Source of the DNA: Sphagnum magellanicum
Taxonomy: Eukaryota; Streptophyta; Sphagnopsida; Sphagnales; Sphagnaceae
DNA length: 64,000 nucleotides
Assembly (NCBI GenBank): GCA_021904315.1
Contig: CM038913.1
Location: 6,075,958-6,139,957 of the forward strand
Direction of reading: 5' to 3'
The notes under the pieces are model-generated. The model made no database searches, was not told where the DNA came from, and was given only the letters and a program-made list of their open reading frames with translations. Positions 303 to 62,980 of this stretch are shown here, in pieces. The position numbers were made by a program, and so were the translations under genes. Within the stretch, counting starts at the first letter, position 1. Each line of letters opens with the position of its first letter.

Positions 303-308
303 ACATAC
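303..308 (-). other. Splice donor GTATGT ending the TPR-kinase exon
   Basis: Read on the minus strand, GATGAAAATGTG is followed by GTATGTGCC. The frame then runs into nonsense residues and a stop at about 279. The position, just after the NFG motif in the activation segment, is where kinase homology stops abruptly, which fits an exon end and not a truncation. Confidence 0.6.
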
Positions 309-3300
309 CACATTTTCATCCCTGCCATGTAAAATTTTTGCCAACCCAAAATTAGCCAATTTTGGGGTGTAATCCTTATCCAAAAGGATATTTCCTGGTT
401 TGATGTCAAGATGAACAATGGTCGGATCACATTTATGATGCAAATGTGCCAATCCTTGAGCGACCCCTATAATGATGCATATTCGTTTGTCCCAATCCAA
501 ACGTTTATCTCCATCGAGCCATTTGTCAAGAGATGAATTTGAAATGTATTCATACACCAACATGTGTTTTAAGCCTTTGATACAATAGCCCAAAAGACGA
601 ACCAAATTGATATGTCGAATTGATCCCAAGGTGTTCATTTCTGATATGAAAGATTTTTTTGCACCTTCATTATGTTCACCACTCCATTCCAATACTTTAA
701 TGGCAGTCGTAATGCCTTTCCAAGAACTTTGATACACTTCACCATAGGCTCCTTTCCCCAAACTTCGTCCGAAATTCAATTCTTCGTATGTAAAAGATTG
801 AATCTTCAAATTAAATGGCAACGATTGTATTATGGGTTGGTATTCATCGACCATCCATTTCAACCATTTTCGATCTTGCAATATAAATTCATCATTTGGT
901 TTGAGAACATGAAGTTTATCGATGGCTTCCAATGCCGCTTGATATTTGTTTAAATTCAAATTCATGTGGGCATAAATTGTTAAAGTGAATGCATGATTTG
1001 GTACAAGAACATCAGCCTTGTCAAGGTCCTCCAAGGCTCCTTCATAATCATCCAGGTTCCTTTTGATAGCTCCACGAACACTCAAAGTGAATGCATCATT
1101 TGGTTCAACAACATCAGCCTTGTCAAGGTCCTCCAAGGCTCCTTCATAGTCATCCAACATCCTTTTGACATCTCCACGAACTCTCAAAGTGAATGCATCG
1201 TTCGGTTTAAGAACATCGGCCTTGTCAAGGTCCTCCAAGGCTTCTTGATAGTCATCCAACATTCTTTTGACATCTCCACGAACACTCAAAGTGAATGCAT
1301 CATTTGGTTTAAGAACATCAGCCTTGTCAAGGTCCTCTAAGGCTCCTTGATAGTCATCCAACATTCTTTTGACATCTCCACGACTCCTCAAAGTGAATGC
1401 ATCGTCTGCTTCAAGAACATCAGCCTTGTCAAGGTCCTCCAAGGCTCCTTGACACTCATGCAACATTTTTTTAACATATCCACGATGTCGCAAAATGAAT
1501 GCATGATTTGGTACAAGAACATCAGCCTTGTCAAGGTCCTCCAAGGCTCCTTGATAGTCATGCAACATCCTTTTGACATCTCCACGAACACTCAAAGTGA
1601 ATGCATCATTTGGTTCAAAAACATCAGCCTTGTCAAGGTCCTCCAAGGCTCCTTCATAGTCATGCAACACCCTTTTGACATCTCCACGAACACTCAAAGT
1701 GAATGCATCATTTGGTTCAAAAACATCAGCCTTGTCAAGGTCCTCCAAGGCTCCTTGACAGTCATCCAACATCCTTTTGACATCTCCACGATATCGCAAA
1801 GTGAATGCATTGTTTGGTTCAAAAACATCAGCCTTGTCAAGGTCCTCCAAGGTTCCTTGATAGTCATGCAACACCTTTTTGACATCTCCACGATATCGCA
1901 AAGTGAATGCATGATTTGGTTCAAAAACATCAGCCTTGTCAAGGTCTTCCAAGGCTCCTTGATAGTCATGCAACATCCTTTTGACATCTCCACGACATCG
2001 CAAAGTGAATGCATTGTTTGGTTCAAAAACATCAGCCTTGTCAAGGTCTTCCAAGGCTCCTTGATAGTCATGCAACATCCTTTTGACATCTCCACGATAT
2101 CGCAAAGTGAATGCATTGTTTGGTTCAAAAACATCAGCCTTGTCAAGGTCTTCCAAGGCTCCTTGAAAGTCATGCAACATCCTTTTGACATCTCCACGAT
2201 ATCGCAAAGTGAATGCATTGTTTGGTTCAAAAACATCAGCCTTGTCAAGGTCCTCCAAGGCTCCTTGATAGTTATCCAACATCCTTTTGACATCTCCACG
2301 ATATTGCAAAGTGAATGCATTGTTTGGTTCAAAAACATCAGCCTTGTCAAGGTCTTCCAGGGCTCCTTGATAGTCATGCAACATCCTTTTGACATCTCCA
2401 CGATATCGCAAAGTGAATGCATTGTTTGGTTCAAAAACATCAGCCTTGTCAAGGTCTTCCAAGGCTCCTTGATAGTTATCTAACATCCTTTTGACATCTC
2501 CACGATATCGCAAAGTGAATGCATTGTTTGGTTCAAAAACATCAGCCTTGTCAAGGTCTTCCAGGGCTCTTTGATAGTCATGCAACATCCTTTTGACATC
2601 TCCACGATATCGCAAAGTGAATGCATTGTTTGGTTCAAAAACATCAGCCTTGTCAAGGTCCTCCAAGGCTCCTTGATAGTCATGCAACATCCTTTTGACA
2701 TTTCCACGACATTGCAAAGTGAATGCATTGTTTGGTTCAAAAACATCAGCCTTGTCAAGGTCCTCCAAGGCTCCTTGATGGTCATGCAACATCCTTTTGA
2801 CATTTCCACGATATCGCAAAGTGAATGCATTGTTTGGTTCAAAAACATCAGCCTTGTCAAGGTCCTCCAAGGCTCCTTGATAGTCATGCAACATCCTTCT
2901 GACATCTCCACGATATCGCAAAGTGAATGCATTGTTTGGTTCAAAAACATCAGCCTTGTCAAGGTCTTCCAAGGCTCCTTGATAGTCATGCAACAACCTT
3001 TTGACATCTCCACGACATCGCAAATTGAATGCATTGTTTGGTTCAAAAACATCAACCTTGTCAAGGTCCTCCAAGGCTCCTTGATGGTCATGCAACATCC
3101 TTTTGACGTCTCCACAATATCGCAAAGTGAATGCATTGTTTGGTTCAAAAACATCAGCCTTGTCAAGGTCCTCCAAGGCTCCTTGATGGTCATGCAACAT
3201 CCTTCTGACATCTCCACAATATCGCAAAGTGAATGCATTGTTTGGTTCAAAAACATCAGCCTTGTCAAGGTCTTCCAGGGCTCTTTGATAGTCATGCAAC

Positions 3301-4103
3301 ATCCTTTTGACATCTCCACGATATCGCAAATTGAATGCATTGTTTGGTTCAAAAACATCAGCCTTGTCAAGGTCCTCCAAGGCTCCTTGATGGTCATGCA
3401 ACATCCTTTTGACATTTCCACGATATCGCAAAGTGAATGCATTGTTTGGTTCAAAAACATCAGCCTTGTCAAGGTCCTCTAAGGCTCTTTGATAGTCATC
3501 CAACATCTTTTTGACCTTTCCACGAGTTTGTAAAGTGAATGCATTGTTTGATTCAAGAACATCAGCCTTGTTAAGGTCCTCCAAGGCTCCTTGATAGTCA
3601 TGCAACATTTTTTTGACATTTCCACGATTCATCAAAGTGAATGCATCATTTGGTTCAAGAACATCAGCCTTGTCAAGGTCCTGCAAGGTTCCTTGATAAT
3701 CATCCAACATTTTTTTGACATCTTCACAACTCTTCAAAGTGAATGCATCGTTTGGTTCAAGAACATCAACCTTATCAAGGTCCTCCAAGGCTCCTTGATA
3801 GTCATCCAACATTATTTTGACATCTCCACAACTCCTCAAAGTGAATGCATCGTTTGGTTCAAGAACATCAGCCTTGTTAAAGTCCTCTGAGGCTCTTTGA
3901 TAGTCATCCAACATCTTTTTGACCTTTCCACGAGTTTGCAAAATGAGTGCATTGTTTGGTTGAAGAATATCAACCTTGTCAATGTTTTCCAAGGCTCCTT
4001 GATAGTCATGTGACATCCCTTTTACATTTCCACGAGTCTTCAAAGTGATTGCATTGTTTTGTTTAAGAACATCAACCTTGTCAAGCTTCTTCAAAGCTCC
4101 TTG
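309..4103 (-). CDS. TPR-repeat/receptor-like kinase fusion, partial exon
   Basis: A single open exon of about 1,265 codons. About 32 tandem 34-residue units come first and a protein kinase N-lobe plus catalytic loop comes last. Each unit keeps the TPR signature positions (G8, Y17, A20, A27, P32), so it should fold as a TPR superhelix. The kinase begins near residue 1101: glycine loop GKGAYGEV (about 1113-1120), AIK lysine (about 1133), helix-C glutamate, a non-RD catalytic loop HLDIKPGN, then NFG where DFG is expected. There is no transmembrane segment or signal peptide, so a cytoplasmic protein is expected. The exon ends at a donor GTATGT (minus strand, 308-303) just after NFGLAK, where the activation loop should follow; the C-lobe is outside the window. 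No ATG opens the frame: the first in-frame codons after the ochre stop at 4104-4106 read inside a repeat. It is therefore either an internal exon or a 5'-broken gene. The repeat and kinase calls are firm; functionality is uncertain. Confidence 0.65.
1200..3540 (-). repeat. Homogenised 102-bp tandem repeat core
   Basis: 102-bp units (34 codons) follow one another without spacing. Units between about 1.6 and 3.5 kb differ by only a few bases; nearly every one carries the same DKADVFEPNNAF block. Units nearer the kinase use LEPND or LKPND variants. The period is a multiple of three, so several other frames on both strands are also open; those antisense ORFs are by-products. Confidence 0.9.
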
Positions 4104-5065
4104 TTAATCATCCAACATCTTTTTGACCTCTCCACAAGTCTGCAAAGTGAATGCATTGTTTAGTTCAAAAACATCAACCTTGTCAAAATCCTCCAAGGCT
4201 CCTTGACAATCATGTAATATACTTTTGACCTCTCCACAAATCCGCAAAGTGAATGCATTGTTTGGTTCAAGAACATGAGCCTTGTTAAGGTCATTCAAAG
4301 GTCTTTGATAATCATTCAACATATATTTCACTCTTTCACAACTATTCAAAGTGGATGCATTGTTTGGTTCAAGAACATGAACTTTGTCAAGGTCCTTCAA
4401 GGCTCTTTGATAAGGATGCAACATCCTTTTGACATCTTCAAGAGTCCTCAAAGGGAATGCATTGTTTGATTCAAGAACATCAACCTTGTCAAGGTCTTCC
4501 AAGGCTTCTTAATAATTATCCAACATTGTTTTAACGTCTTCGAGAGTCTTCAAAGTGGATGCATTGTTTGAGTCAAAAAGATGAGTTTTGTGAATATTCT
4601 CCGAGGCTACTCCTTGATAATCATGCAACATATATTGACATTTTTCACAAGTTTTCAAAGTGAATGCATTTTTACTTTGAAAACTTGTTTGACATTGTTT
4701 GACTCAAGAACATGAAATTTGTCAAGGTCCTTGAAAGCTCCTTCATAATTGTTCAACACCTATTTGACATATTAATAAAAATTCTTAAAATATGTGCAAT
4801 GATTGGTTTAATAACATCATGTTTGTCAAGGTCTTCAAAAGTTACTTCATCTTCCTTGAAGACCTTTTTTTCATGTGCATAAGTTTTAAAACTTAATGCA
4901 CTTTTGATTCACTTAACATAAACCTTGTCAAGGTCTTCCAAGGCTACTTGATAATCTTTTAACACCTTTTTCACATTTTCCACGTGTGTTATTTAAATGA
5001 CTCCATTGTTTAATTCATGAACACTAGCCTTGTGAAAGTCTTCCATGGCTTTTAATAAGCATTTC
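4104..5065 (-). pseudogene. Decayed 5' extension of the TPR repeat array
   Basis: The 102-bp unit continues upstream of the open exon. Four more repeats read in frame from 4107 to about 4508, bounded by two ochre codons: a Tyr codon of the repeat is now TAA (4104-4106) and a Gln codon is now TAA (4509-4511). Beyond 4.5 kb the characteristic blocks still recur to about 5.06 kb, but with indels, frameshifts and variable spacing. This is the eroding edge of the array; it cannot be translated as part of the protein without readthrough or splicing. Confidence 0.8.
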
Positions 5066-8000
5066 ATTTTTCAAAAACATGAAATAATGGAATATGTATT
5101 TATAAATTGAACATGAAACAAAATAATTGTGATACAAATTTTTTTGGGGGATATTCCAGTACACCTATGTCACCTTACTTTCATATAGATTTGATATGTA
5201 ATCATTACTTATACAATGATTAACATACATAATTCTTATCATTGATGATTATTCCACTTAGTTTAAAGAATGCCATTTGGTAATATACATTTCATTACAT
5301 TATGCAATTTGTTCAATTCAATAAATGTAGATAAAAGATGTGCATCCAAATCAATATATATTTTTCCATTTCTTGATGGAGCTAAGGTGGCAAGCATTCC
5401 GAGGCAAACCTTGATTTAACTAACAACATTATTTCAAGGAACTCTAGAAATTTGGACAAATAGGCACATATGTAACAAAATTTTCACCCTAAAAATATTT
5501 AAGAATCACTTTTAGGCAAAAAAATTCCAGAAAAGGAAACTGCAACAAAATAATATGTATGTAAAAACTTGTGTTGCCTTTTGGTGATTTTTGCCCAACA
5601 AATTAATTGATCATTATTTTGTATCATGTCTTATTATTGAAATTTCTTTTCCCATTCCCTTGTCATGCAACTTGAATGTTTACAAAATTGATTTGGTTCA
5701 AACATAAATGGACAAATGATAAATTACAAAGAACAAATCATTGAATCATTTAGAACATACATTGACGAAGTTAGTTCTCCTGTTGATATTCCAACATGAT
5801 TTGAGTGACAAACTTGATCATTGTTGAACAATATTGTTGCACAACTCCATCACTTGCATATTTACATGCATATGCACAAACCTTGTCTAACATTATTGTT
5901 GTTGAATGGGACTCTTTCCTTGGCAAGCGTTAATATTGTAGTACTCTATTTATGCAAAATTCATAACTTTTAATTGTGAAAAAACTATTTGGTGATGCTA
6001 GCTGATGTGAATCCCACTTTTCTTCAAATTAAACTCTTTAATATAATCTCATTTGAAACCTAAAAATATCCTATTCATGTTTTAATTATTCACTCATTCC
6101 ATTCATCACAACCTTCATACCTTTCACATCCTTGAATAAGAACACAAACTTAGTTTTGATGTTGCAAGACATATTGAGTTCAAGATAATAAAAGTTTGTG
6201 TGTGAAACACATACCTATACGTTTTGAGAAATTGCAAAAGATGTGATGTTCAAATGACCTTGATAGTTTTTGTTGTCTTTTTGCGTTGGTTGTTAGCCCA
6301 ATGAAATGCATGTGAACACTATGGCAATCAAGAAAAACATCAAGTTAACCCACTTTAATAGAAAATCATGCTAGATGAGCCTTTGTGTAAATTTGAATCA
6401 TTATACAATCGTTACTTGAGGTCAAATATTCATAACATTACTAATGCATTCAAGGACATGGAACCAAAGTTTTGGTGTTTGAGACATACCAGGTTTGACA
6501 TAAAAGACGTGATGATATGTGAGAAGCATTTGCACGTGGTGATTGGATGATGAACACTTCTCTTGTTGTTGCATTGAGCCACAAAGCAGTATAAACATAT
6601 GTGAAGAGATTGACGGCAATAGCGCAACAAGGGAACCAACCTTGATAAAAGTTTGTAGCAAACTCCAGGATGCAAATTTGAGCCAAGGGAGAATTAGTCC
6701 ATTGGATTCCTTGCATTTATCCCCGACTGGCGAATATCTTGGAAGGTGGTTGTGATTAGAGGTTGAGAGAAAGGATCCAAGTGGTCCTTCTAGGATGGTG
6801 CAAACCGTGTGCCATAATTTAGGCTGGTTAAGGTTTTCTGTGCTACCCGCTCAGAACTTTACTCAGGAATATATTATTGCAGCTGGATGCTTTTCTGTCT
6901 TTTCTCTCGTCGTCTTGTGCTTTCACATTGCTCAAGATTGGAAGTCTTTAATAAAGCAATGCAGTCTGTGCGTGAGTACTAGATCTGCAACTTCCTGTGA
7001 TCACTGATTTTTCTGGCTATAAGATAATGGATGCAAGTGGTCATTGCTGGATTGCACCGTCCATGTGTCAGCAAAGAAAAGTGAGGCCCGCTAGTAGTCC
7101 TTAGTCAGAACTTTCCTCTTACCATATAGATCATATCAACTCTTTGCTTGGTGTAGCTTTTTCTCCCTCATTACCTGCTGGGAAACATTGTTCATAATTT
7201 CATTTACCATAAAGTCATGGCACGTGCCCCATGTTGGTGCTTGGCCCCGAACTTGAGCATGTGTAGGTTTTAGACTTGAAAATTTTCCTGTGACCCGTGC
7301 TTTTCAGGCATTACAGAATTGATGGATTTGGTCATTGTTTGAAAATGCACAACCTGAGTCAGCAGATATAATTGGGCTTGTTAGAGCTGGAACTAGTGAA
7401 ATTTTCGTGGCTAAAATTCGCCATTTTGCTATAAATGAAAGTCCCAAGAACCATGGTCGAGGGAACTTTTTGGAAAAACTCTAAAAAAATTGACACATTT
7501 TCAGGAAGAAGAGAGTTATGAAATAGCCCCAAAAAAATATTTGAAGGATTTGGGCAGATTTCTAACTTTCTTCTTTTGAAATCCCCATATTTAGTTAATA
7601 GGTTCTATTGGTTTGCCAACATGTAATAAGATTGCCATAATTTTTACTTCTTTATTTGTCTTGTAATCAGATCTGATTAAATCCTCTTGTGGCTGATTGC
7701 CTGTTTTGATGCGACATGAGAAAATTGAAAAAAAGGAACACCGGCTGGACCCTCTGAATTGATCGTTTGTCAGCAAAGAAGACTTATCGGCCCTTTGAAG
7801 TGCTCCCCAAGCAAAGTGGCCCATTTGAGAACTTGCCTTTGGCATGCATGCAATATACTAAGGCAACAGAAATGGTTTGCTGACATGTGAGCTGTTGAAT
7901 CTTCATCACATGCTCACTGGTCATGCCTGTAATGGAGTTGGGCATACGTTAGAGAAATCGGTAAATTCAGGGGGAGTTTCACAGGGTGTGTCATACCCTA

Positions 8001-9780
8001 TTAACTTTTTCGCCTTGAGTTCAGTGCTCCATAAAGTCACCCTGACTGTGGTCGGTTTTGGAAAAAGACGGGCTGGGAAGGGGTTGCCCACGTGGATGCG
8101 CATTTAACTGGCTTAAAATGGGGTGGACGGTCCAAGACTGGCTTGAATAGCTGGACAGTCTAAGAAGTTGAAAATATCAACTTTTGGATTGGGGAGGGGA
8201 GGGGAGGCGATGGTGTTTTGGGAGGCATTTTTGGGATTTGGAGGGACGGTGAGGGGATTTGGGTGCCGTTTTTTCTTTCCTGAAGGATGGGTGGGCTAGG
8301 GGTTGAGGAGGATCATGATTTTTTTAAAATTTTAAATTCTTTTCTTGAAGGGGGGGAGGGAGTGGGGTTCTAGGGGTCTTAATAGGTGGAGGTGGGAAAG
8401 GGTTTGTTTTTTGTCCTGAGTGGGTGGGTTCGAGCCTTTAAGTATTTATTTTTGGTTGTTGGAGGTGTAGGGGATACTTCGATTTATCCCAAATTTCGTA
8501 TTTTTTTAATAATTGGTTGAGGTTTCATGTTCTAGGTTCAGAGTTAAGGGGGGGTTGAGGGAGGTTTTCATTTAATGCCCATGTGCTAAGTGCATTGGAG
8601 ATCATTGGAAATTTGAGAAGAAAGAAAGTAGGATCATTTCTAAAAGTAGCACTATTTGCATTCAGAAACAGAGGTCAAGAGTGTGGTATTCAGATTGGTT
8701 GATATCTAGCATCAACCTACACCAAAAGAACTTTCTTTTTGAGCATCAATGTTCCTCACAATCATGTTGCAACTTAATGTCTTTGCTCTCAATATTTGAC
8801 ATCCGCTGTTGATTTTCTGGTGTTGATTTAAGGCTTTCATGTTGTTAAACTCCTCTTGAGTTTCAAATTTGAAATGCACCTCATCAAATTCTTCCTTCGC
8901 AAAGGTCCCTTTTGTAATGTCTTGCTCACAGACCATTGCTATTAACTTTCTTTAGATCTCATTGAGCTCATAATTCTTTATATCTAAAGATTTTTGCATA
9001 GCTAACATGTCTTCTGGCAACGCCATGATTTTTATATTAATTATGCTGCTCATGATATTGAATTGTTTAGTCAATTGTACAATTTCAATGTTTGCATTTG
9101 TGATAGCCTTTTTCTTCATGTCCACAATCAAGATTTCTATTAGATGTGAAATATGGGTGTCCAAGGTTTCTATATTGCAATGAAGAGCTATGACCTTCAA
9201 CAACTAAGCTTCATTTTGCTGTTGCAGTACACTGGAGTTACATTGGGATATTTTTGCATTGCTTAGTTTTTGATATCAAAGTCGTCTTTCCATGACTGTG
9301 GGAGTCCTTCATGGTCACCACTGGTGCCAGTCGAACTTTAACATCCATGGATGTGGCACCTCCCAACTGGGGCTTTGGTGAAACATACCAAGGATCCCAA
9401 GTACTATGGAAATCCTATCAAATAATTATTTCCCACACTGTTTGACACTTCCTTAATGGCACAATACATAGAGATTAAATCATTCAGGCTGCAAGACTTT
9501 TCAGATTACCAGCTTATAAAAAGCATATTGCTTTAGACTGTGGGTGGAAAATTTCGAACCATCTATTTAGCAGATTGGGACAACCCATGTCTGTGTGTAA
9601 AGATTTGGAGGAGAAGATTTTTGAAGGGTTCTACCATGAGAAGAAGCTCTTGCAGTTTGACATAAGAGTAGTCAGAACGTGCTAGAATTTGGGATTCAAC
9701 ATATGCTGGAAAACCAAGGATAGGATTTTTCAAAATGTAGAATCATTTGAAAAATGACATAAATGGTATGCTGCAATCTC
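5066..9780. other. No gene recognised
   Basis: AT-rich to about 6.4 kb, then a more GC-balanced block (about 6.5-8.6 kb) with only short ORFs that match nothing I recognise. A G-rich stretch lies at 8.19-8.57 kb. The composition of 6.5-8.1 kb is closer to the gene at 43-54 kb than to the surrounding DNA, so it may hold an exon or UTR remnant, but I cannot support one. Confidence 0.4.
8191..8207 (+). other. G-run tract, possible G-quadruplex
   Basis: Three G4 runs separated by single A residues, followed by GG, with further GGG runs in the next 40 bases. This is compatible with an intramolecular G-quadruplex. No gene context gives it a role. Confidence 0.3.
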
Positions 9781-9799
9781 CCTTTATCCTCGCCCCTGA

Positions 9800-10190
9800 A
9801 CTGCCTTTCCCTGCTTTGAGTTCCCAACTATGAAAAAAAAACCTTATTTTCCTTGCAAGGTGTTGGAGGCAAAAATGGTAGATAGGGAAGATGCATTCAA
9901 GTCCCTTCCCCTCTTGCTCAAAAGAAAAGCCTTATTTTCTCTGCTAGGTGACAGATGCTAAATTGTACACAGGGGAATTGCATTTTATTAGCATGGCCTT
10001 CTTCAAGAGCTTTCCCCTCTTCAGACATCGCACTTCAAAAAAATCTTTATTTTCCCTGAAAGGTGATCGAAACAAAAAATGTACAAAAGGAAATTTCATT
10101 TTGTTCCCAGGGTCTTCACCAATTTTCCCCCGCTTCAGCTTCAATACTGTGTAAAAACCCTTCCTTTCCCCTAAATGAAGAAAGAATAGG
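9800..10190. repeat. Diverged tandem repeat of about 90-115 bp
   Basis: A block reading roughly AAAA-CCTTATTTTCC followed by a short AAGGTG segment recurs at about 9842, 9929, 10044 and 10160. It is preceded each time by a CTTTCCCCTC-like stretch. Spacing is 87-115 bp. The short ORFs here come from the repeat; no product is recognised. Confidence 0.45.
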
Positions 10191-13100
10191 GAGTTTGCAT
10201 TTCCCATTCAATTGCAAAGGGGATTCCTTGAGATTCTCAGATTTTCAAACAGAGGATCCCCCACAAGTTTCTTGTGTTGGGTGACCCAGCACCCACACTG
10301 GTAGCATGGTAAGAACCCAAATTTTCATTTAAATTGCTTCCGAATATTACAAATACCATGCTTAGGTTAAAATAGGGTCTGTGAGATCAAATCTAAGATT
10401 TTTTGGGCTTAATACGGTCACTGCGTGGCCTCGCTAAAAAGGGTGAAAGTATTAGTGCCAGGAGCTGGTTCACCCTGGCCGTGAGGTGTGTAAGATGAGG
10501 GCAGAGCCTGAGTCGCACTCACTGACCCTGACTTGACCCGCCCAAGAAAATGCCCTCCCCTTGTGAAAATATTTTTAAACATTTAAAATAACTTTTTATC
10601 TTTTGCTTATATTTTCGTACCACCTTACAAGGGTCTGCTGTCCTGAGATCTTATAGGGTTCTTATGGGAACCTTGACATTACGCCATACAATCCAGGCCA
10701 TTGAAAATGATAAATCATTTCAGCTGAAAAATCTTTATGCACCCGAAGTCCTCTTCACAGGACTTCCTGGAGGGAGGTCCTGCCAACAAGGGCGATAAGG
10801 TTCATCAATTCCATTGGGAAGAGGACTCTCCCCAATAGAAGAATATTTTTTAGAGTCATCTATTATGTCTGTTCTCTGTGACATACATCAGCAAGTGTTC
10901 AGTAAGCATCGGGTCATAATACAACAATTTTATGGTTTGGTATGGGTTTGTGCAGTTCTTTTCAAAATAATTTTCATTTGGCAAAGTGGTAAATTTTTGT
11001 TGAAAAACCGCATTTTACACCCTAAAACATGTTCAAATATTTTCCAAGTTTTTCTCAAAGAAATATAGTAAATTTGTTTTTGTTGGAATTGTCAACACAC
11101 ATTTGGATTGTTGATGATAGTTTATTGTTGATTTTGCAACACAAAGGTTTCAGTTTTCTATCAAAGGTTATGAGTATTTCCCTCCAATTATATCAACTGT
11201 GCATTACTCTGTCCTTGGCAACATCTACTATTTATATCTTCACATTCTCCACAAAATATTTGTAGACTTGGTCAGATTTCATATAATGTCAACATTTCTT
11301 GCAGTTTTGTCTTATCAACACATCCATAAATGTAATACATCACATTTTCAACAAACTTCAGTCATGCTTGGGAATGCAAGTAAATCTTTGAGGCAAGTCC
11401 CATAAAATATATGTAGTTGATCAAAATTATGTGATGAACTAGATGTACAAATCAAAATTGAAATTGTGTTGACATTTTAGACTCAAACTAATACGATATT
11501 GCCAATGAACTAGAGAACAAGAATTTCATTGGATCAACAAAGTAGCCTATCTAAATTTTTAAACTTTTTTTTTATAACCTAGGTCGACTGGTAGGTGCCA
11601 TAAAGCAATAATTAGCCAACACTAGTGCAAACCCTAAGCCATGGCCACTCACTTCTATCAATAAGAAAATGATAAAAGAATCTCTTTTATGCTTTCTAAC
11701 TATTGTAGGAACACATTAGGCAAATGTTTTTGGAATCCACTCCTTTTTCCACACGTGGCAAATTTGTACATTTCTAAAACATTCATCCAATAACTCATCA
11801 TAACAATCAATTTGGTATTCTCATTAGTAGATCAAAACTAGATAATTAGCCTTTAGTATTATATGATTACAAGATTGCACAATATTAAAAAAATTCAGTT
11901 ATTAAACCTCTTAGGACCTGTTTAATTGTTAGTGTGAAGCAAACCCAAAGAAACCCAACAAGAATGAACATGGCCATAACCTTTTGATTCAATTGCAACT
12001 TCATTGCAACTATCACCTTTTATATATTAACAACTACTTAGCTAACTACTTACTTTTAATTATTGTCTAATTATCAACTTGACTTAACTTATTAATTAAT
12101 TCATCTTATATGACACCTAAGCTAAACTTTGTTGAGGACTAGGCCTAGGTTGAGTGTTGGTACGATCTCAAGCACAAAATTTTTTTACCAACTAGACAAT
12201 TATTGCAATGTTCGAGTTTTGAGAAATACCATAAATCAATTCAACCTAGGAATGTGGTTAGCCAATGATGTTTAATTGAGTGGTAAATGGTTTCTCGCTA
12301 AGGGTTTGTTTTAAAATGTAACTAATGTTTTTTTAATGTTCTTCACTGTTAATTCACATCATGCAAGGTTGTTTTCCATCATTGATGGCAACACCACAAG
12401 TGGAAGTAGCACCTTGTCCCACCCAAGGAAAAAATCTAAAACTTATATTTATGGGTCCTTTACAAGACACCAAAACAAGTCACCAACTTGGAAGAGCCGA
12501 GGTATATTTATGAATGCACCAAAGCTGGTAAGGTGAACCCAAATCTCATTACATGGTAATGGGCTTTGCTAGGGCATGTTCCAAGGTCTAGAGCAAATCA
12601 ATATCCACCAGCGCACCATCCACTGGATGCCTATTATGGCTAAGTTGTGGGTGGACCTCCAGTAAATTACTATATAGTTTCACCTTGGTAACCCATTTTG
12701 TGAGAAGTAGGTGTTGTCCATATGTTGGTAGATAGGTAACAAGGGGTGTGTCCCCCACTGTGAACTTGCCATTTACATTAAAAAGTATCTTAAGGAAAAA
12801 GAAAATTTATGGAAACTCAAATATTTCACTATGCAAAAATATAGTCTTCAAAAAGTCCTTTAAACAAATTAAAATCCTTCAAGATAATATAAATTTATAA
12901 CTAATCTCAAGTTTGAACACAAGCTAAAACATCATCTATCAAAAATCCTCATATGAAAATAAACCCAATATCTAGGAACCAAAATCCCTTTAAACTACTA
13001 TACTCTATAATGAATTTAAAACACAATATTCTTGCCTTACTAGGCAATGCCAACAATAAAACAAATAATTAGTTTGTAAGTAGATGATTTATACATAGGT

Positions 13101-18682: not shown

Positions 18683-19467
18683 TGACGCACTCCCAAGTCC
18701 CAAGTTGAACCCACTTGAGGGTCCAACTATGTTGAGTTGCGGAAAGATGGGACTTGAGGGGCGCTCCCGACTTCTAGCACTAAAGAGGGGTAGAGGGGCA
18801 TGCTAGAAGTCCCGGGATTAGACTAGGGAGATGGACTAGTAGATCAAGCATGAATCTGCATCCAAAACCAACCACAAGAGGGTTAAATCACATTCAGGAA
18901 CACCCTTGGGTGTTGGGACAAGCCACGGGCAACTTGGACTACTTGACTCACCACGGCCCGGACTCGGGGGAAGCCACCACCTTCCCCCATATAGTATTCT
19001 TTGCGTCTCACTATGGAGGCTACATCTGAATGGCTCTTTTTCCTGGGACTCCCAAGTTGGAGTCCCGAAACTGTCTCGGGTTGGAGTCCCGGGACTTTGG
19101 ACGGCCATATCTCTTCGCCCCAAACTCGGATCGGGATGAGTCCTAAATCAAAGTTGTAGCTCTCGTCAAGAGCTTTCCAACGCCATGTTGCACTCTTTCA
19201 GGCGACGTCGGGAAAAGGTCGATTCTTGACTTTTAGTGGTCGGGAGTCAAACTGGCAATTTGACTCCCGACCCTTCTTTTGCCCATAACTTGGGCTGCAA
19301 ATGTCCAAATGGGCAATGCGAGGCCATTTTGGACGTCTACGCTTCAAGAGATTTCCATTGATATAAAGAACGCATCAAGGCGAGGAGATTTGACCCCTCA
19401 AATCGTCTTTTGAGTTTTCGGGAGTCCCGGAGGACTCCAAATCTCCACTTTTGGGAGTGGGAGTTGC
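18683..19467 (+). mobile_element. GC-rich interspersed repeat, copy A
   Basis: It starts TGACGCACTCCCAA and aligns over about 785 bp, in inverted orientation, with 59513-60287. Shared blocks include TAGAGGGGCATG, CACCACGGCCC, GGGGGAAGCCACCACCTTCC, GAGGCTACATC, repeated inverted GGGACTCCC/GGGAGTCCC words, AAAGTTGTAGCTCTCGTC and GACCCTTCTTTTG. GC content is far above the flanks. There is no coding capacity. A 5'-TG start hints at an LTR or LTR-derived element, but no partner LTR or internal region was found, so its class is open. Confidence 0.6.
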
Positions 19468-21949: not shown

Positions 21950-24330
21950 TATAACCAAATTCACTTTAGTTTGAAATGGACCAACAAATGTTCAAGTAAT
22001 CTAGTTTAATTTACCATTACTCAGATTGACCTACTTTAACACTATTTTACTTATTTTACTTCAATTTAAATTAATTAACATAATTTAATCTAATTTAGCC
22101 TAATGTAGCCTAATGTAACAATTTAATATAATTTATCTTCATTTAATTATCTTCATTTTAACCTAAAAATATATAAATAATTTATTTAACATTAGTTTAG
22201 CCAATTTTAGCTTGTTTAAAAAAACCAAATTAACCAAATTGATTTAAAATAACAAAAAATAACCCAAATTTAACCAAGTTTAGCTTAAGTAGTTTATATA
22301 AATAATATATATAAATAATCTAGTTTACCTTAGTTTAGCTAGTTTTTTAAAAAACCAAATGAACCCAATTGAAGAAAAATAACCAAAAATAATCCAAATT
22401 TAACCATGCTTAATTAAATTTAACCAAGTCTAGCGTCAATACCTTAGTTCAGCTTGACTTATCCAAACTTTTCTAAGTTTAACGAAGTTTAATTTTAAAA
22501 TAATCATGTTTAGCCAAATGTAATTTCAATATTATAATTTAGCCTATTTTTCCAAGTTTTGTCGAATTTAGCCAATTTAAAACTAAAGAACCATGTTTAG
22601 CCAAGTTTAACCAAGTTTTACTTAAGTAACCATGTTTAGCCACAATACCCTAGTTTACCCTAATTTATCCAAGTTTTTCCAAGTTCAATCAAATTTAACT
22701 TAAGTAACCATGTTTAACCAAATTTTGCCTCGATATTGTAATTTTGCCTAATTTATCCAAAATTTTCCAAGTTTAACTTAAATAGCCATGTTTAGCCAAA
22801 ATTTGTTACAATACCTTTGTGTGGTTGAATGTATATAAGTTTTGCCAAATGTAACTAGGTCTAATCTAAGTAACCAAGTTTTGTTAAATTTTGCCAAGTT
22901 TAAGCAAAATGAACCTAAATAGCCATGTTTAGCTAATTTTTGCCAAGTTTTGCCTCTATATCGTAGTTTAACCTAATTTATTTAGGTTTTTCCAAGTTTA
23001 TTTTCAATACATTAATTTAATCAAATTTATTTAAGTTTTGCCAAATGGAACCATGTTTAATTGAAGTAGCCAAATTTTGCCAAGTTTTGTTAAGTTAACC
23101 AAGTTTCATTTAAATAACCATATTTAGCCAATTTTGCTAAGTTTTGCCAAGTTTCACCTAAATAACTATGTTTAACCTTTTTTGTTCAATTTCGCCAAAT
23201 TTAATCTAAATAACCATGTTTAACCAAAATTTTCCAAGTTTAACCAAATTTATCCAAAATAACTATGTTTAACTAAGTTTTGCCAAGTCTAACCAAGTTA
23301 AACTAAAATAACCATGTTTACTCAAATTTTGCTAAGTTTTGTCAAGTCTAACCATGTTCAACTAAAATAACCATGTTTAACCAAATTTTGCTAAATTTTT
23401 CCCAATTTAACCAAGTTTAACCAAAATAGCCATCTTTAGATAAATTTTGTCAATTCTAACCAAGTTTAACCAAAATAGGGCTCCATGTTTAGCCAAGTTT
23501 TGTTAAGGTTTGCCAAGTTTAACCCAGTTTTGTTAAGTTTTACCAAGTTTAACCAATCTTAACCAAAATAGCCATGTTTAACCAAGTTTTGTTAAGTTTT
23601 GCTCAATTTTACCATGTTCAATCTAAATAGGCATGTTTAGCCAAATTTTGTCAAATTTTGCCAAATTTATCTTAAATAACTATGTTTAATAAATTTTTTC
23701 CAAGTTTTGCCTCAATACCTTGGTTTAGTTTAATTTATCTAAGTTTTGCGAAGTTTATCCTTAACACCCTAATTTAGCCAAATTTATCTAAATTTTGCTA
23801 AATATGATTAGGTTTTGCCAATTTTTATTTTAGTGTTATAATTTAATTTAATTTTTCCGAGTCTAATTAAATTTATCGTCTAATTTGATCTAATTAATAC
23901 CTTGGTACCTTGGCTAATTCAACATTAATTATTTTATTTTAAAAATGTTCAAATTTTCAAAAAAATGTCTTTTAAATCAAAAAAATATTGTTAAGGAAAA
24001 TAATGAATATATAAGAATATTTCATTTGTGGAAATGATTTTTTTTAAATAATTAATTATTCGAGGAACATGTGTTGAAATGGCCAAGGTATTATGGTATT
24101 AATTTTGTTAGGTTTTGCCAAATTTGGTTAAGTTTAGCTTAAATAATTGTGTTTAGTTTAATTTATGTTAGTTTAGTCAAAGTTTAATTTACTTTAACCC
24201 TGTCTAAATTTATATTAGTCTATTACTTAGTAGGCTTACATTTAGGTTAGGAATGCCTAAGTTAATTTAAGTTAACTTATGTTAGCCAAGGTTAAGCTAT
24301 TAAATAGACTAAATTAATCTAAATCAAACT
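21950..24330. repeat. Degenerate short-word array (AACCATG / TTTAGCCA / CCAAGTTT)
   Basis: About 2 kb built almost entirely from variants of AACCATGTTTAGCCAAGTTT and AACCAAGTTTTGCC, without a fixed period. It is densest between 22.2 and 23.9 kb. The same words occur in inverted orientation in the array at 33.0-34.3 kb. It has no coding capacity. It is probably internal sequence of a decayed transposon, but I found no termini. Confidence 0.6.
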
Positions 24331-31664: not shown

Positions 31665-34600
31665 CACTACTAGAATTCCTTTTTCTTTTACTAAAAATTT
31701 TGGTAAAAAAAATTCATTTTGGATAGATGTCAGGAAAACCTTTTAATCATTTTGGACAAATCATTTTCAACTTGTCCATTGTGATTAGGTTGTGTACTTT
31801 TTGACCAAGCTTAGGTTGGCATTTTTTAGTCGTTTCAACTAGTATTTTTGACTGATCATTTTGATTGGTCAAACACCATTTCGACTAGGCAAATGCCACG
31901 TGGCATTTAAACAATGGCCACCCAAGTTATGCCATGTGGCATTTAAACATTGGCCATTAGGCTATGCCACGTGGATAAAACCTAAACAACCTAGGTTAAG
32001 CCTAAAATTAGATACCTACTCTTAAAGTCCTTATGTTTAAGAACCTACAAACTAAGTTCCTATGCCTAGGTCTAGGAACTTATAACTGATGACTAAGTAA
32101 ATAAGCCTATAGTAGGTTAGGGCAACATAAGCTATGACCTTTACTAGGCTTAAATGTACACCATTTAAATTAAGCTTACACCTAGATGACCTAGCTACGA
32201 AAATCCTATTTCATTTTGAATTTAAATTTTAAGGTTGAGCATTTTCAATTGGCTCATCCCAAGTGGCTTTCCTTGTTAAAATATTTTTTCTGTCTTGGAT
32301 GTTTATGGTGCATCTATTTATGCTATTCATCATTTGGAAAGGATGACAAACAACATGGGACAAACTTTTGGGAGGCAGAAACATTTTCATGTTCATACAA
32401 CATTAAAGCCTTTTAATTCACACAACATTATTCCAAAATAATTATGTAAGATACATAAATTAAATAGATAAATAAATAAATAGGCATGTAAATATGTATG
32501 TTAATTAAGTCAAATAAAAATTAATAATAGTTAATGTCTAGTTATTTAGTTATAATTAATAATTACAGCCATATTATAAATCTTTAAAATATCAAGATAA
32601 TTATATTATATTATATTATTGATTGATAATTACAAAAAAATTATAATTAATCCTTACAAATTTGACCTAATTCATTATATATTATCAATGATGTATTTGT
32701 AATAATTAATATATAACTATTTAATTACACATTCATTAGTGTATTTTAAATAAATAACTAGTTAAACAATTAGCAGTTTATCATAGGTATATAAATAGCC
32801 TACCCTATCCTATATAACTAGGTTACCTATAGGTTAAAATATAGGTGAATAGATGGAGTATGGGTAGGATTGTATAAATAAATACATCTCCATCTAAGTT
32901 ATTTGTATTTAGGTTATTTAGCCACATATTTACATTACATAAGTTAAATAGGTGGTTAACTTAACCTATGAAAAAATAATTATTGAAAAACTAATGATTG
33001 GTAAAATAATAATGTATAAACCAACCACAATGAAAGTAATTATGGAAATTTTAATGATTATTAAATTAGTAATGGCTAAACCAACCAAAATTTTAAAATA
33101 ATTATGGAAAAAATAACCATGATTAAACTAATCATGGGTAAAATAACTATGGCTAAATTAGAAATGATTAAATTAAACACAAGTAAAATAAATATGGTAA
33201 AATTAAGCATGAATTAGTAAATAAGGCCAAGTTAACCAATGATAAATATTTTATGCTAAACTAACCATGGACAAACTAAAAATGGTTAAAACTAATCATG
33301 AGTAAAATTAAACTAACCATAAGTAAAATATATATGGCCAAACTAACAACATGAATAAATATTTTATGGCTAAACCAACCATGGTTAAACTAGCTAATGA
33401 ATAAATATTTTATGACTAAATTATAAATGGTTGAACCAATCAAGAATAAAATAAATATGGTTAAACTAATAATGAATAAATATTTATGAAAAAAGCAACG
33501 ATGAGAAAATTAATTATGGCTAAAATTAGAATGATTAAAATAATTATGGAAAAATTAACCATGACTAAATTATAAACGATTAAACTAATTATGAATAAAT
33601 AAATTTGGTTAAACTAACCATTAATAAAATTAGGATGGATAAAATAACTACTGAATAAATAATTTATGAAGAAACCAATAATGAAAAAGTTAATTATGCC
33701 TAAAATTAACATGAATGAAGTAATTATGGCTAAAATAAAATGTTTAACATAATTATGGCAAAATCAACCATGGCTAAACTAAAAATGGTTACACCGACCA
33801 TGAGTAAGTAAATTTGGCTAAATTAGCCACTAATAAAATTAATATGGCTTAACTAAATTATGAATAAATTATTTTATGGCAAAATAAATTTTGAAAATTT
33901 TAATTATGGTTGATATCAAAATGGTTAAAATAACTATGGCAATATTAACCATGGCTAAACTAACCATAAGTAAATAAATTTGATTAAAGTAACCATTAAT
34001 AAAATTAATATGGCTAAACTTAAAATGTTCAAACTAATTTGGCAAAACCAACCATGATTAAAATAATAATATTTTCAAGTTAATTATGGGTCTAATAATT
34101 ATGGTTAAATTTATTAAGATAAAATAATAATATGTTAAAAATATATAGAGTTAATTTAGTTATGCTTATAGTAACCATGGTTAAATTCATTATGGCAAAA
34201 CCAATAATGACCCAACTAGTAATGTTTAAATTAATTATGTTAAATTAATTATCATGGCTAAATTTTTTAAGGCTAAGCAAACTATTGTTAAATTAATCAT
34301 GGTTAGATTAGTTATGGTTTTTTTAATTTTAATTAGTTTTTTCATAGGTAGTTGAACGATAATTAATGTTAATTTAATCAATTTAACCATAGTTAGATAA
34401 ACCATATATATATAATTAGTTTAACCATAAATAATTTGGTCATGATTCATTTAGTTATGATTAATTGACTTTTACATTTTCAAAAACTTTCCTAATTTGT
34501 CAAACATAGTCAAAATGTTACATGTGGTCCTAAAATACCCAATTAGTATTGGATTTGTAATTGGGCCTTTTGACCAAGCCTATTTTGTTAACCCCTATTG

Positions 34601-43823: not shown

Positions 43824-46800
43824 AGATGCTGAGGGCGAAGGTGGTGGCATCCATGCCACTGCGGAAGTCGCAACAGTCGACAACTTCCGTGGTAGTGGAG
43901 GAGAGGGAGGAGGGTGAGCTTTCGGCGGAGGACGAGGAGTCCTTGGTGCCTGCAATGGTCTCGTCCTCACCCCCACCTCTCCTCCGTGTTTTTTTTTTTT
44001 GTTTCCCCCGTTTCTTTTACCCCCTCCATCTATTCCATTACTGCCGAAATCCCGATCAGTTTTCTTTTCTTCGTCTATATTTTTTTTCCACTGGAGCCCT
44101 GAGTCTTCTCAAATTTGTAGTCTATGTTTAATTCGTTGGTTCGTGTCATATGAGGGATTTTGAAACCGAGTTGTGAATTTCTTGTGGACTAGATTGTTAG
44201 GGATCGGATTATGCATCTGTGCTGCCTGTCATCATCGCTCTTTTCGTGTGCTGAATCTACTCTGATGGTGCTGAGTTGATTAGGGCATATTCTTGGGCGT
44301 TGAATATTGTGGTGGGAACTCACTGTACTAGCTAGGAATGGTCTTAGTGGGCATCGTGGTTGAAGCTTGGGACTCGGCAGACATTGTAAGTGTTTGTAAG
44401 AAGGTGGTCTTGTGGATGTAATCCGAAAACCCTAATTCTGACTCTTCACTGCAGCAGAGTTTGCTTTTGGGATGTGTATTGTTATTAGCTATTTTGTTGA
44501 TGGCTGCAACCTTCAAGGAGTTCGAGAGATTTTGTTCTCTGTGGGAGTGACTTCAGCTCCTTTACACTCTCAAGGAGAGAAGATGGGAAGTAGATGGTGG
44601 TGTATGTCAAGTTATGTAACTTGTCTTCTGTCTTGTCTGTCTTGTCTTCTGTTCAGAAAAAAGTGTCAGTGCTGTTGCACCCCTAAGCCTGATTTACACT
44701 TTTTTGAGCCTTTGCTTTGTTATCTCCATGAATGTTTGACAGAAGTTTTACATGTCTTTCTGTGGTTTTCACATTTGTCATTTGTGGTCATGTGCAATTT
44801 AATTTGCAATGGTGAGTCTGTTGGGGAGAAGAAACTGTTCTGAAAATATTATCTGCAACAAGAAGGTGGTTGCTGGTAGTGCTTCTGATGCATTCAACTC
44901 TTGGTGGTGGCAATTAGGGCACACGTGCAGCACCATCTCGAAACAGGGTGCCAAAGCTTGAAACACGCACTCAAAGCTCTATTGAGGAGAAGCCTGTTTT
45001 TCCCACAAGTTCCAAGGCACAAGCTGCACAACCAACAACACAAGTATCGATTGTAAACAAGTCACAGCTGCTCAATATGTTTAGTGCTCCTGCTCCCCCT
45101 TTGGCCTCTCTCCAGGGACCCATGCCAGGTGTGTTGAGTTGGTTCTGAATCTGCTATGGTGATCCTCTGTGCACCTCATTCATTCTTGTATTGCTGAAGC
45201 CAACAAGATTCTGTGTATGGATTGTTGTGCGCTTGCATGCTATAGGTCTGAAGTGGAGAGCTTGCTGCTTTTCTGTGCAGTGAGATATCCAGCGTCAGCA
45301 ACACTTTCCAAGTCACAATCTCAGGTAAGGAAAATCTGTTGGTCACCTTTCTATAAATAATTATTTTCCTGAGACAGGTCAAAGGTTTTTATGTTCTTAG
45401 CAAAGGTGGCTATCCACATATCAGCTGACAAGCAGTTGCTGAATGTCAATTCTGAGGCTGTCTTTGCTAAGATCTTTGTGGAATGCAACTGTGCAGTTTT
45501 CCCCTACAGACATAGGTTTAGCAAGGCATCAAGGGACACCTATGCAAATTGATGCCAATTCTTTTGGAGGCCAGATGAATTCGTCTATGAACAAGCTACG
45601 TGAAGTTGCACCAGCTGCATCAACGCAAACTGTTATGCCTAGTTTTGGCCATCCTATCACACATGGTAGAAAGAGAGGCAGAAGCAGAGAAGCCATAACA
45701 GTCCCTTTCACGCATAGCAAGGTTGCTCCCCCTGTTGCACCCCGAGTACGTGCTATTGCCATGTCCTCAGGTACATTTATGTCTCTGCAACTTGTTTGCA
45801 TTCTTTTGGTGAACTTGGACAGATACATGTCTGGTCTGGTATGAAGCAATAATTGTGTGGTGACCATGGATGACTTACAGTGTGTGTTTTAAATGCAATG
45901 TGAGCACTATGAACTTGATGATCCATGCATTAGGTTTTCTCGAAAGGTCATGTTCTTAAAGTTCTCTGTGTTGTCTTAACCTTCTCATGCTCCTTATTTG
46001 GTTTTTTTCGGTTTGGTCTTTGTTATGTTCCTCTTTCTTCTTGGTTTCTCTGGCTATCTCCTTCTCTTTTATGGTTGTTAAGCTAGCAGCATGATGGCAG
46101 AGTCTTACTGTTACCACCTGTCTTGTGATAGAAACTTGGTACATTGATTAATTTGACATTGACTTCCACCCAATGCTGGGAGTTGATGAAGTCTGTTGGG
46201 AGTTTCATGATAGCTGGTCACTACCATACATGTCTCTGTTCAAGGTAATTGGATGTGCATGTGGCTATTGCTGTTGTTTGGACCATGCCTCATTTTTCCG
46301 TGTATTTTTAGGGTTAATACTTTCTTTTTCTTTTTCTTTCATTCTTGTCAGCTGATATCTTGTTGCTTTTGAAATCTTTATAACTTATTATCAAGTCATT
46401 TCTGAATTCGATTCAGGTTGATCTAAATTGTGACTATGGAGAAGATCTCTTATGAAGATATATGTGTATATGCCAGTGTTCATGGAAGAGCAATCTTGAG
46501 GTCTGAAGTCTGAACTTGACTCTGGTTTATGTAGGCCTTCATTCACCACAGCCTGCATCTGCACCTGTGAGTGGGGTGCACAGGGAAGTTGAGGCTTTTC
46601 TTGCCAGTTTGCACCTTCCTGTAGTACCTACATCTTCCACCCCATTAAGTGAAGAGAATTTTGTAATAAAATTTGACAGTGACAGCGATAGTGAAGGGGA
46701 GCAGCAGCTGATTAGATCCAACCAGGGTCAATTTACCAGTGCTACCAGTGGACAGCAAAGCACAAGTCTCTCAAGCCAGAGTCCTGCAGACATGAGATCT

Positions 46801-49800
46801 GAAATTGATCGAATGAAGAAGCAGATAGCTGTTATGGAGCGAAGCAAGGCTAAAACCAACAGCAATAGCAATCTGACCTCTCAGTCTGTTACTCTATCCA
46901 AGAATATTGGCCCTCGCACTGGCACAGTGAATCTGGAGAATCTGCGCCAGCAAATAGCTGCCAAGGAGAATGAGTTGCTTGAGCGTCGCCAACGCCTGGC
47001 TGTCACATCACCTATGGAAAAGCCTCACTTACCAGTTGGAAAGGTTCTGGAACAACGAAATGCTACCAGAGTAGGAGATGAACAAACAAGAATAGGTAGT
47101 GCTGTCCAGTTGACTCTTGTGGAACAGGCTGTTCAAAACACTGGTGCAGAAGAAGGCAAGCTGGTACCCTGTGGTCCCAGAGCAAGTGTTTCTGGGTCTG
47201 CAATACTCTCTGATGCACGAGATGTTGAGGGTGATGTCGGGTTGATGTTCCAGAAGTCTGGGGCACCTCAGACCCTGAAGAGGGCAGCTTCAGAGGTGTA
47301 TCTCTCTGGGGAACTGCACAAGCTTCGTAAAGTGGAGTTGCCATCAGTGAGCCAGCCACAGCACTTGGTGTCTGCAGCACAGAGTTCTACTGCACAACAT
47401 GGTAAAGGCACACTTGGTGTAGAATCTATTTCATCTACTCAGGCAGATGGGTGTGCAATCTTCAAGACCAAGCTTGAAGATGGACATTTTCCAGTTCACG
47501 CTCATACATCAATCCCAGTAACGAAGAAATCTCAGACACTGTCCACGAGGACAAATCTATCAAATCCATCTGGAGAATCTGCTAGTGTGCCTGCTGAAGA
47601 CATGACATTCCTAGTAGGTTCTCAGGGATCACAAGATACAAGCATAGTCATAAGCTCTACAGGCCAGGCTGTGTGCGCTTCTGTAGAGCAAGGCCCCATA
47701 ACAGCGTTTGTTGTCAGTCGCCCAGATTCTGGTTTGAGTAGCAAGGATGGAGTTCTACGAAAGGATGCCCAAGGTGCGGGCTTGAGTTCTTCTGGGCCAC
47801 AGGTTTTTGTGGATACCATTCCTGTGGAATCACCAGTGCCACAAGAATGTGGAAATGAACATGCCTTAGGTTTAGAAGCTGAAATTCTATCTTCAACTTC
47901 TCAGCAAATAAATGTGTTTGAACCAGATGCCCCACCACAGGCTACTGTCTCTTCAGTTGGCACCATGGTTGAGCTTTCTACTGCAAGTTCTGCTGGAACT
48001 CCCATTCATGTGGCAGAATCCACTCCAAGTCGTTCTATTCCAAGCACTGTGATGTTGAGCACACCAACTTCCTCCTTGCCAGCAGCAAGGGAGGAAGTAA
48101 GAAGGGTTGTACCTAGTTTCACTATCAAGAGTCCAATCTATTCACCTATTACTACAGCAACTGGTTATGATGCAGCAATTCCTTCATTACACCTGCCAGG
48201 GTATGCTCTGTGGCCACCTTTGCATCAACTTCAGGCTGCAACAAATCAATTAGAGCCATCAGGTATCCGTGGTCCCATTTGGAGTATAGATTCTGCAAGA
48301 GAGGGGGGGATGCAGTTGTTACAGCGGCTGCAAGAGGATGAAGATGCTGTGGATAAAGCCCTTGAAGAAGCACAGGAGCACAGACGAAAATGTGAAGTGA
48401 GTGAGCGAGAGGCACGGCGTCGATACCAGGATGCAAAGACTGCACTTGCCTCAGCTAATGCACTTTGTGATGCACTTCTGCATCAGCGCAAGCTGCTCTC
48501 TGCCCAGCTTCATGCTGCAGAACTTCGAATGCTACAGCTGCCTCCCTTTGCAGTGTCCACTGACAGGCAACTAACTTCTGATCATCATGCACAGCTCACT
48601 GAACTGCCTCTAGAATTTTCCTCAGCTGCATGGACAAATCAACAACAGTCGCCACCCAGAGTGCATGTGAAGGGCAATCTGAGGCAGGGAACACGTGTGG
48701 AGCAGGAGGGCCAACCAATTACCAATCCTCCTCCTGAGGATTGCCAAAGTATGGGGTCAGAGATGACTATTCCTGCTGCTGTTCTCAAGGAAAGCCCCAT
48801 TTCAAAGCGTTCTTCAGACAATAGTTCTGGAGGGCATCTGTTGGGACTTCAGATGGTTGCTCCCACTGTTGGAAACCAGGAGGTCCATAGCTATCTGCAC
48901 CTGTACCCAGCACAGTATGTTGCACAGGACAGGCTTAATGTGCAATCTCATGAAATACCTGATCTAAGTCTTGACCATTGGAGGGTATCAACAGTGGTCA
49001 ATAAGAGTGATGGTGTTTCTCCTGTACATACAGTAGTGAAGGACAGTAAGGTTGTCAAGGTCAGAATGCCTGCTGCTGCAGCAGATTTGGAGGGGTTGTG
49101 TGAGGATTCTGGAACAAATGGTTCGGAATGTCAGCGTAGCAGTGAAGAGAAGAATCTCCAGCATCTCACTCAAAATGGTGTGGGTGTTAGCACACCTATT
49201 GAGAACTTGCCTGGTGATAGGAGTCAGAAGCCTGTTACACAGTTAGGGGACACAGAGAAAAAAGATTCAGATGAGAGAAACACTCCCCCTAACGAACAGG
49301 TGCAATCAGCAGACAGAGAGCAACCATTGGCAGGTTGGGGTATGGACAAGGATGTTCCTGGGTGTGTGGTTGTGCAGGGTGAAGGAAAAGAGTATCCTAT
49401 GAGTGAGGATAAGTTGGGCACATCAGAGACTGCACACATAAGTTTGAAGGAAGAGGATGAGGAAAGGTGTGATGATGACAGAGTGCACCCATGTGCTACC
49501 AAGATTACAATCACACCACTGCAGAATGACATAATCAGTCTGACCCCAGATAGTCAGTTTGGCAATTCAGATGGTCCTGGTTTTGAAACGAAGGTGAAGC
49601 ATGGAATTGCAGAAATTCCTGAAGGGGATGAAGGTTTGGCCTCTTCATTGAGGTTCACTACAGTTTGCCTCAGTGATGGAGGTCAGACAGATGTACTACC
49701 TAAAGGTGAGGTTCACCTTCCATTAGAACATCTAGGAATTGTGTTAGTTGGGCACAACACTGATCATAGTGAACAAAGTATTGTTGTGACAGGGGTTGCT

Positions 49801-62900: not shown

Positions 62901-62980
62901 TTTTCCATTTTCCTTCATGAGGGTCTCAAGCTATAGCATTTGCATTACTTACAAATGCATCTGTCATAGTTCGACCAAGT

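Follow-up and report, generated by a model that had tools for sequence, protein, structure and literature searches.

The systems closest in logic to the gene described here are the fungal NLRs with highly conserved repeats. These are reported to carry WD, ANK or TPR repeats of high internal conservation (PMC1805685, PMC4986451). In the fungal TPRs, the selected sites are described as mapping to the concave side, and highly conserved repeats are put at 0.4% in Viridiplantae (PMC4986451). The gene considered here is a TPR-kinase gene on the minus strand of a 64,000-nucleotide stretch of the Sphagnum magellanicum genome (GenBank assembly GCA_021904315.1, contig CM038913.1, positions 6,075,958 to 6,139,957), hereafter the window. 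The gene and its paralogues in this moss share with the fungal NLRs, as these are described, nearly identical repeats that stay in frame, a copy number that varies, homogenisation, and selection for change at a small number of sites in each repeat. The variation in repeat number is seen between paralogues of one genome. The fungal proteins are described with a NACHT or NB-ARC switch, whereas the moss family has a receptor-type kinase and an N-terminal array. The window protein has no Pfam match to NACHT or NB-ARC, either in exon 1 or in the joined exons, and it is therefore not a member of the fungal NLRs.

Other described proteins share single parts of this architecture. BSKs likewise combine a plant kinase and TPRs in one protein, but are described with the kinase first and two or three C-terminal TPRs (PMC6429265). 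In the window protein the TPRs come first, as the original prediction, made from the letters of the window, had pointed out in calling the order unfamiliar. Because the order is reversed, the window protein is not a BSK. RLK/Pelle kinases such as BRI1 and the LysM and lectin receptor kinases are alike in the sequence of the kinase domain; in the window protein no membrane helix is found. The moss kinase-NLRs, of which many are reported in Physcomitrella, are described as putative intracellular receptors with a kinase domain, but they contain NB-ARC and LRR, neither of which is among the Pfam matches of the window protein (PMC7145615, PMC5350094). Designed consensus TPR proteins give the best solved-structure match of the array, but these are engineered. 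A plant TPR-array receptor kinase does not appear in the titles and abstract openings among the matches listed, which come from a mostly open-access literature.

The window gene joins a long TPR array to a kinase in a three-exon structure and belongs to a family of at least 41 loci. The kinase of this family is under purifying selection, the arrays differ in unit number, and amino acid change is in excess at particular positions of the repeat. It is rather probable that this gene belongs to a large moss family of receptor-type kinases, amplified and probably cytoplasmic, in which a TPR solenoid would act as sensor and the kinase as output.

The original prediction placed about 32 near-identical TPR units at 309-4103, joined directly to a plant receptor-type kinase in one exon. 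This is confirmed by the open frame and the Pfam matches. A stop-free minus-strand frame runs from 4103 to 282, and its coding part closes at 309 with a GTATGT donor next to it. The features of the array are the following, in window coordinates.

309..4103, minus strand: exon 1 open frame of 1265 codons, comprising TPR array, linker and kinase to the activation segment, with the coding end taken from the splice donor
918..4079, minus strand: 31 in-phase 102-bp TPR units without a stop or off-grid step (frame and grid check)
1734..3467, minus strand: homogenised core of 17 units, each 1-5 of 102 bases off the consensus (unit comparison)
816..917, minus strand: degenerate 32nd repeat and linker to the kinase, with 47 differences from the consensus (unit comparison)
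4080..5062, minus strand: upstream units of the array, decayed; stops lie in frame at 4104-4106 and 4509-4511, and 4502-5062 contains 13 gap runs
4014..4016, minus strand: earliest in-frame ATG of exon 1, in the context AAAGGGATGT, with G at -3

Tandem Repeats Finder gives 35.8 copies of 102 bp at 982-4631, with 89% matches and 0% indels. The outer units of the array are diverged and the central 17 are nearly identical. Met occupies TPR position 13 in 26 of the 31 window units, and translation of the window copy could start inside the first intact unit. The Pfam TPR_2 score of 207.8 bits (4.4e-64) is summed over the whole array; no single unit passes, and some unrelated Pfam families also score on this repetitive sequence. 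At positions 4, 7 and 11 of the TPR signature, which we take to comprise positions 4, 7, 8, 11, 20, 24, 27 and 32, the units carry L, R and K. The best solved-structure match is the engineered TPR protein 9qhb (E 5.5e-29). The PDB search also returns TAL-effector repeats, likewise 34 residues long, and we take these matches as a product of the repeat period. A TPR superhelix is suggested by the TPR match by itself.

The kinase begins in exon 1 and is completed by two exons beside the window, which in genome coordinates is G000:C7:6075958-6139957.

309..794, minus strand: kinase part of exon 1, with GKGAYGEV loop, AIK, HLDIKPGN and NFG
351..353, minus strand: Asn codon of NFG, where 18 of the 20 fetched copies encode Asp
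303..308, minus strand: splice donor GTATGT after exon 1
G000:C7 6075855-6075544, minus strand: exon 2, 104 codons (...RPGTSGYMAPE...SDVYSFG...), adjoining the window and outside it
G000:C7 6073754-6073602, minus strand: exon 3, 50 codons and a stop, outside the window

The partial kinase of exon 1 matches PK_Tyr_Ser-Thr with 97.6 bits and Pkinase with 96 bits. The closest solved kinases in the PDB include BRI1 (E 9e-31), a LysM kinase and CERK1. By domain match, the kinase is of the plant receptor type (RLK/Pelle). The phases of exons 2 and 3 match and their splice signals are present. When the three exons are joined, Pkinase scores 162.6 bits over positions 3-259 of 263. Since the two further exons complete the domain, the kinase is complete, and its reading as a kinase fragment is rejected. 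The 3' part thus lies outside the window, as predicted. The TPR-kinase fusion of the original gene picture stands. The rest of that picture changes in four respects: two 3' exons were missing instead of one, the kinase has NFG, the array extends further, with a decayed 5' end, and the gene belongs to a large family. The expected lack of a membrane helix agrees with hydropathy, in which no strongly hydrophobic stretch is found (the top 19-residue value, 1.36, lies inside the kinase), with an unseen upstream exon possible.

The window kinase has NFG and HLD where DFG and HRD are usual. Because the metal-binding Asp of DFG is replaced by Asn and the 5' array is decaying, we infer that the window copy is an impaired or kinase-dead version. 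A stronger form of this idea is that the window copy is a pseudogene, although other members of the family function, and that homogenisation has kept its relic array open. NFG, present in two of the 20 fetched copies, the two in-frame stops of the decayed 5' array and the lack of a clear start codon are consistent with this explanation. Against it, all three exons are open, the kinase domain match is full, the splice signals are there, and 31 units run without a stop or off-grid step. The open exons and splice signals, together with a low ratio of nonsynonymous to synonymous substitution rates (dN/dS) in the kinase relative to the two nearest copies, argue against long neglect. A pseudogene is possible but unlikely.

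The family was sought in the genome of 438,994,042 bases with a DNA query made of the last TPR units and kinase exon 1. The fusion junction is scored at 40 of 77 candidate places, window included, on 17 contigs, with 11 of the 40 on contig C11. The other 39 have 76-95% identity. Both the TPR units and the kinase are spanned in 38 of the 40, that is, in 37 of the 39 besides the window. A search with the kinase part only scores 40 of 54 candidates, of which 39 are common to the junction search, and the union of both searches holds at least 41 loci with the kinase. The best-scoring 20 of the 40 (L032-L051, with L032 the window copy) were read in detail. In 11 of these copies no stop interrupts the frame before the edge of the fetched sequence, 1.5 kb upstream. 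A GT donor occupies the same position in 19 of the 20 (GTATGT in 18, GTGTGT in L040); in L035 the pattern search finds none. Exon 2 is found in all 20. DFG is present in 18, and NFG in the window copy and L046.

The arrays of paralogues differ by whole 102-bp units. The in-frame length is 31 units in the window, 23 in L052 (24 on-grid units, 23 of them stop-free) and 57 in L053 (G000:C9:9941001-9949000). L053 has 57 in-phase stop-free units in a frame of 2,178 codons and is the same copy as L043, which has an exon 2 stop. Runs of several units recur in L053, which suggests duplication of multi-unit blocks besides single units. Sequence outside the exons is also common to the copies:

5239..10662, minus strand: upstream flank, shared at 93% by a paralogue (C7:551301-556663)

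The downstream intron sequence is common to the fetched loci. Because intron sequence and, in the one paralogue compared, more than 5 kb of upstream flank are shared, the copies arose by DNA duplication. A common first exon was not found when the 5.4-kb shared flank was compared with one paralogue in one frame, in the course of no systematic search. Twenty regions chosen for long kinase frames are, the window's own locus apart, free of matches to the TPR query at E 1e-4, and tblastn at E 1e-3 finds the decayed array only, without a second copy inside the window. Elsewhere in the genome, L021 (G000:C10:1668000-1675500) contains a single 1231-codon open frame with three consecutive kinase matches.

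The conserved junction bears on whether the array is coding at all. A 378-amino-acid frame on the plus strand is also open and 102 is a multiple of three, so openness alone is weak evidence of coding. Both facts would fit satellite DNA that is open by chance beside an unrelated kinase gene. The junction is kept in 37 of the 39 other scored places, and the repeats have position-specific change and a shortage of nonsense changes. A chance or satellite origin is very improbable and is rejected on the conserved junction and the position pattern. The original prediction had allowed that homologues might show the array to be always non-coding; this is contradicted by the matches, which span both parts in 37 of the 39 other places, and by the dependence of change in the repeats on codon and TPR position. 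A bacterial origin of the array was also rejected: a contig scan gives one weak Bacteroidales match at 37% identity. The viral contigs scanned contain no relative.

In the tree of the 31 window units, 148 changes are inferred, 38 synonymous and 110 nonsynonymous. None of the 148 is a nonsense change, compared with 4.6 expected (P 0.009). Amino acid changes are too rare at the structural sites (28 vs 43.0 expected, P 0.0016) and too frequent at the assumed ligand-face sites (39 vs 22.8 expected). On these counts the window array alone is suggestive of coding, and it is the family that decides.

In the family, the pairwise dN/dS of kinase exon 1 has a median of 0.418 and a range of 0.14-0.83, which indicates purifying selection on the kinase in 18 of the best-scoring 20 copies. 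L035, where the donor was not found by pattern, and L040 are excluded from this set, and L050 is kept despite a stop in the 281 codons compared. The terminal repeats and linker of the 18 loci have a median of 0.607 and a range of 0.24-1.77. Between the window copy and L033 and L034, dN/dS is 0.16 and 0.22 in the kinase and 1.05 and 1.52 in the repeats.

Within the repeat, TPR positions 5, 6, 9, 12 and 15 are highly diverse, at 2.5-2.8 bits, in 282 stop-free units from the 20 loci. Diversity is low (<0.4) at positions 1, 4, 11, 14, 17, 20, 21, 26 and 33 in the same units. One spurious unit of L040 is retained in the 282 and in the between-locus means. Changes were counted by parsimony, on units that recombine, in 296 stop-free units in which the full window array replaces L032 and L040 is excluded. 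At the five diverse positions, nonsynonymous changes number 413 vs 159.8 expected, or 2.6 times neutral, and synonymous changes 35 vs 46.2. The signature positions have 136 vs 270.0 nonsynonymous and 70 vs 90.8 synonymous changes, and the assumed concave set has 371 vs 216.1 and 63 vs 66.2. Stop-bearing units were dropped before the family counts and the split-half counts; changes through stop codons are still inferred, 8 vs 50 expected in the 296 units and 1-2 vs 6.8-9.4 in L053.

The five positions were initially picked from the same data, and the top five from one half of the loci were therefore tested in the other half. The ratio of nonsynonymous to synonymous change relative to expectation (omega) is 2.95 and 2.99 in the two halves (Fisher P 7e-7 and 1e-12). 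In 41 previously unused units of L053, the original five positions have 51 nonsynonymous changes vs 24.7 expected and 4 synonymous changes vs 6.4. On a helical wheel, the fast positions among 2-14 lie on one face (P 0.026). The 296 units contain 211 distinct combinations of residues at the five positions, compared with 31 for positions 17-21, and the 31 window units contain 19. Of the 19 loci that have at least two units, 18 have a mean difference among their own units that is smaller than the mean difference from the units of all remaining loci; only L041, which is decayed, departs from this. The pattern of repeat variation looks like that of a fast-evolving sensor.

Several results weigh against a sensor array maintained in this way. 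Over all positions, the omega-like ratio of the family is about 1.0, as in control frames. In the window it is 1.02, with 0.92-1.19 in the five other frames, and the pairwise ratio of nonsynonymous to synonymous differences (pN/pS, 30 units) is 0.76 in the coding frame and 0.40-1.15 in the five others, two of which are lower (0.40 and 0.42). Since both values fall within the range of the other frames, there is no constraint on the window array over all positions taken together. Synonymous changes are raised as well at the assumed ligand-face set of the window (13 vs 7.1 expected), and the homogenised 17-unit core has no heterogeneity by position (P 0.19). In the split-half comparison, the top five positions differ slightly (5, 6, 9, 15 and 34 vs 2, 5, 6, 9 and 12), and omega at the signature positions is below 1 in half A (0.46) and above 1 in half B (1.16). 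In L053, omega of the assumed concave set is only 1.12-1.35. The helical-face clustering is weak: for positions 1-15 its P is 0.12, and a 120-degree period fits better (P 0.014). When units are compared with those of the same rank elsewhere, the within-locus likeness holds in just 15 of 19 loci. AlphaFold models of internal stretches of the window array, the only parts submitted, have a mean predicted local distance difference test score of 44.5 and 31.1, with weak strands drawn where helix A is expected. Finally, part of the family is decaying, since stops occur in exon 2 in four of the 20 copies (L035, L040, L041 and L043) and in array units of six of the 20 loci (8 stops). The exon 2 stop codon is at an identical place in L035, L040 and L043.

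The ratios near 1.0, in window and family alike, and the rise of both kinds of change at the assumed ligand positions of the window would also be expected if the repeats varied only through relaxed selection on new repeat copies and lacked a variable ligand surface. Relaxed selection of this kind is reported for repeats within proteins across life forms (PMC5120217). In the family, however, the five positions change at 2.6 times the neutral rate while synonymous change is not raised and the signature positions are slowed, and this pattern recurs in the split halves and in the 41 unused units. Relaxed selection as the whole explanation is improbable. Somewhat less probable still is a BSK-like signalling adaptor whose TPRs serve fixed clients and were amplified by chance. 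Such an origin is in keeping with the reported union of plant kinase and TPRs in BSKs (PMC6429265), but the order is reversed, the units number in the tens where BSKs have two or three, and hypervariable positions would not be accounted for by a fixed client.

Under the preferred reading as a receptor family, the long N-terminal TPR solenoid would be the sensor in the cytoplasm and the C-terminal kinase the output. The solenoid would present a long face to which each unit contributes a few variable residues, those at positions 5, 6, 9, 12 and 15 presumably lining the binding face. Whole units would be gained, lost and homogenised by unequal exchange, so that new combinations are dealt out. Binding of a ligand, probably a variable non-self or stress-derived protein, may then cluster the kinase or free it to signal. 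A more tentative proposal, to which we give rather less than even weight, is that the family does in peat mosses what the repeat-shuffling non-self system does in fungi. It would consist of dozens of cytoplasmic kinases whose 34-residue TPR cartridges are interchangeable and have about five hypervariable residues apiece. Recombination of whole units would generate new specificities and leave the kinase unchanged, and kinase-dead members, the window copy among them, would be decoys or regulators. If this is true, plants also own a class of receptors whose diversity comes from the shuffling of nearly identical repeats, and a kinase takes the role that the NLR switch has in fungi. The evolution of specificity in repeat arrays could then be tested on this family, in an early-diverging land plant. 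The variable positions yield direct predictions for binding and allele studies.

Rfam and tRNA scans of the window find nothing. Among its other features, a large gene in several open pieces occupies 46507-53785 on the plus strand, with a zf-C3H1 domain in 49930-51435 (Pfam 29.6 bits, E 5.8e-7); we take it to be like plant ZFC3H1. An open frame at 62921-63631 on the plus strand has a Myb/SANT-like DNA-binding domain (Pfam 3e-9) and is possibly transposon-derived. Two open frames at 56775-58338 on the minus strand have no Pfam match over the cut-off and give the impression of pieces of a transposase-type gene. The sequences at 18897-19446 and 59527-60074 form an inverted pair of about 550 bp with 77% identity, perhaps from one repeat family. 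Two AT-rich clusters of degenerate direct repeats are present at 22550-23800 and 33000-34060.

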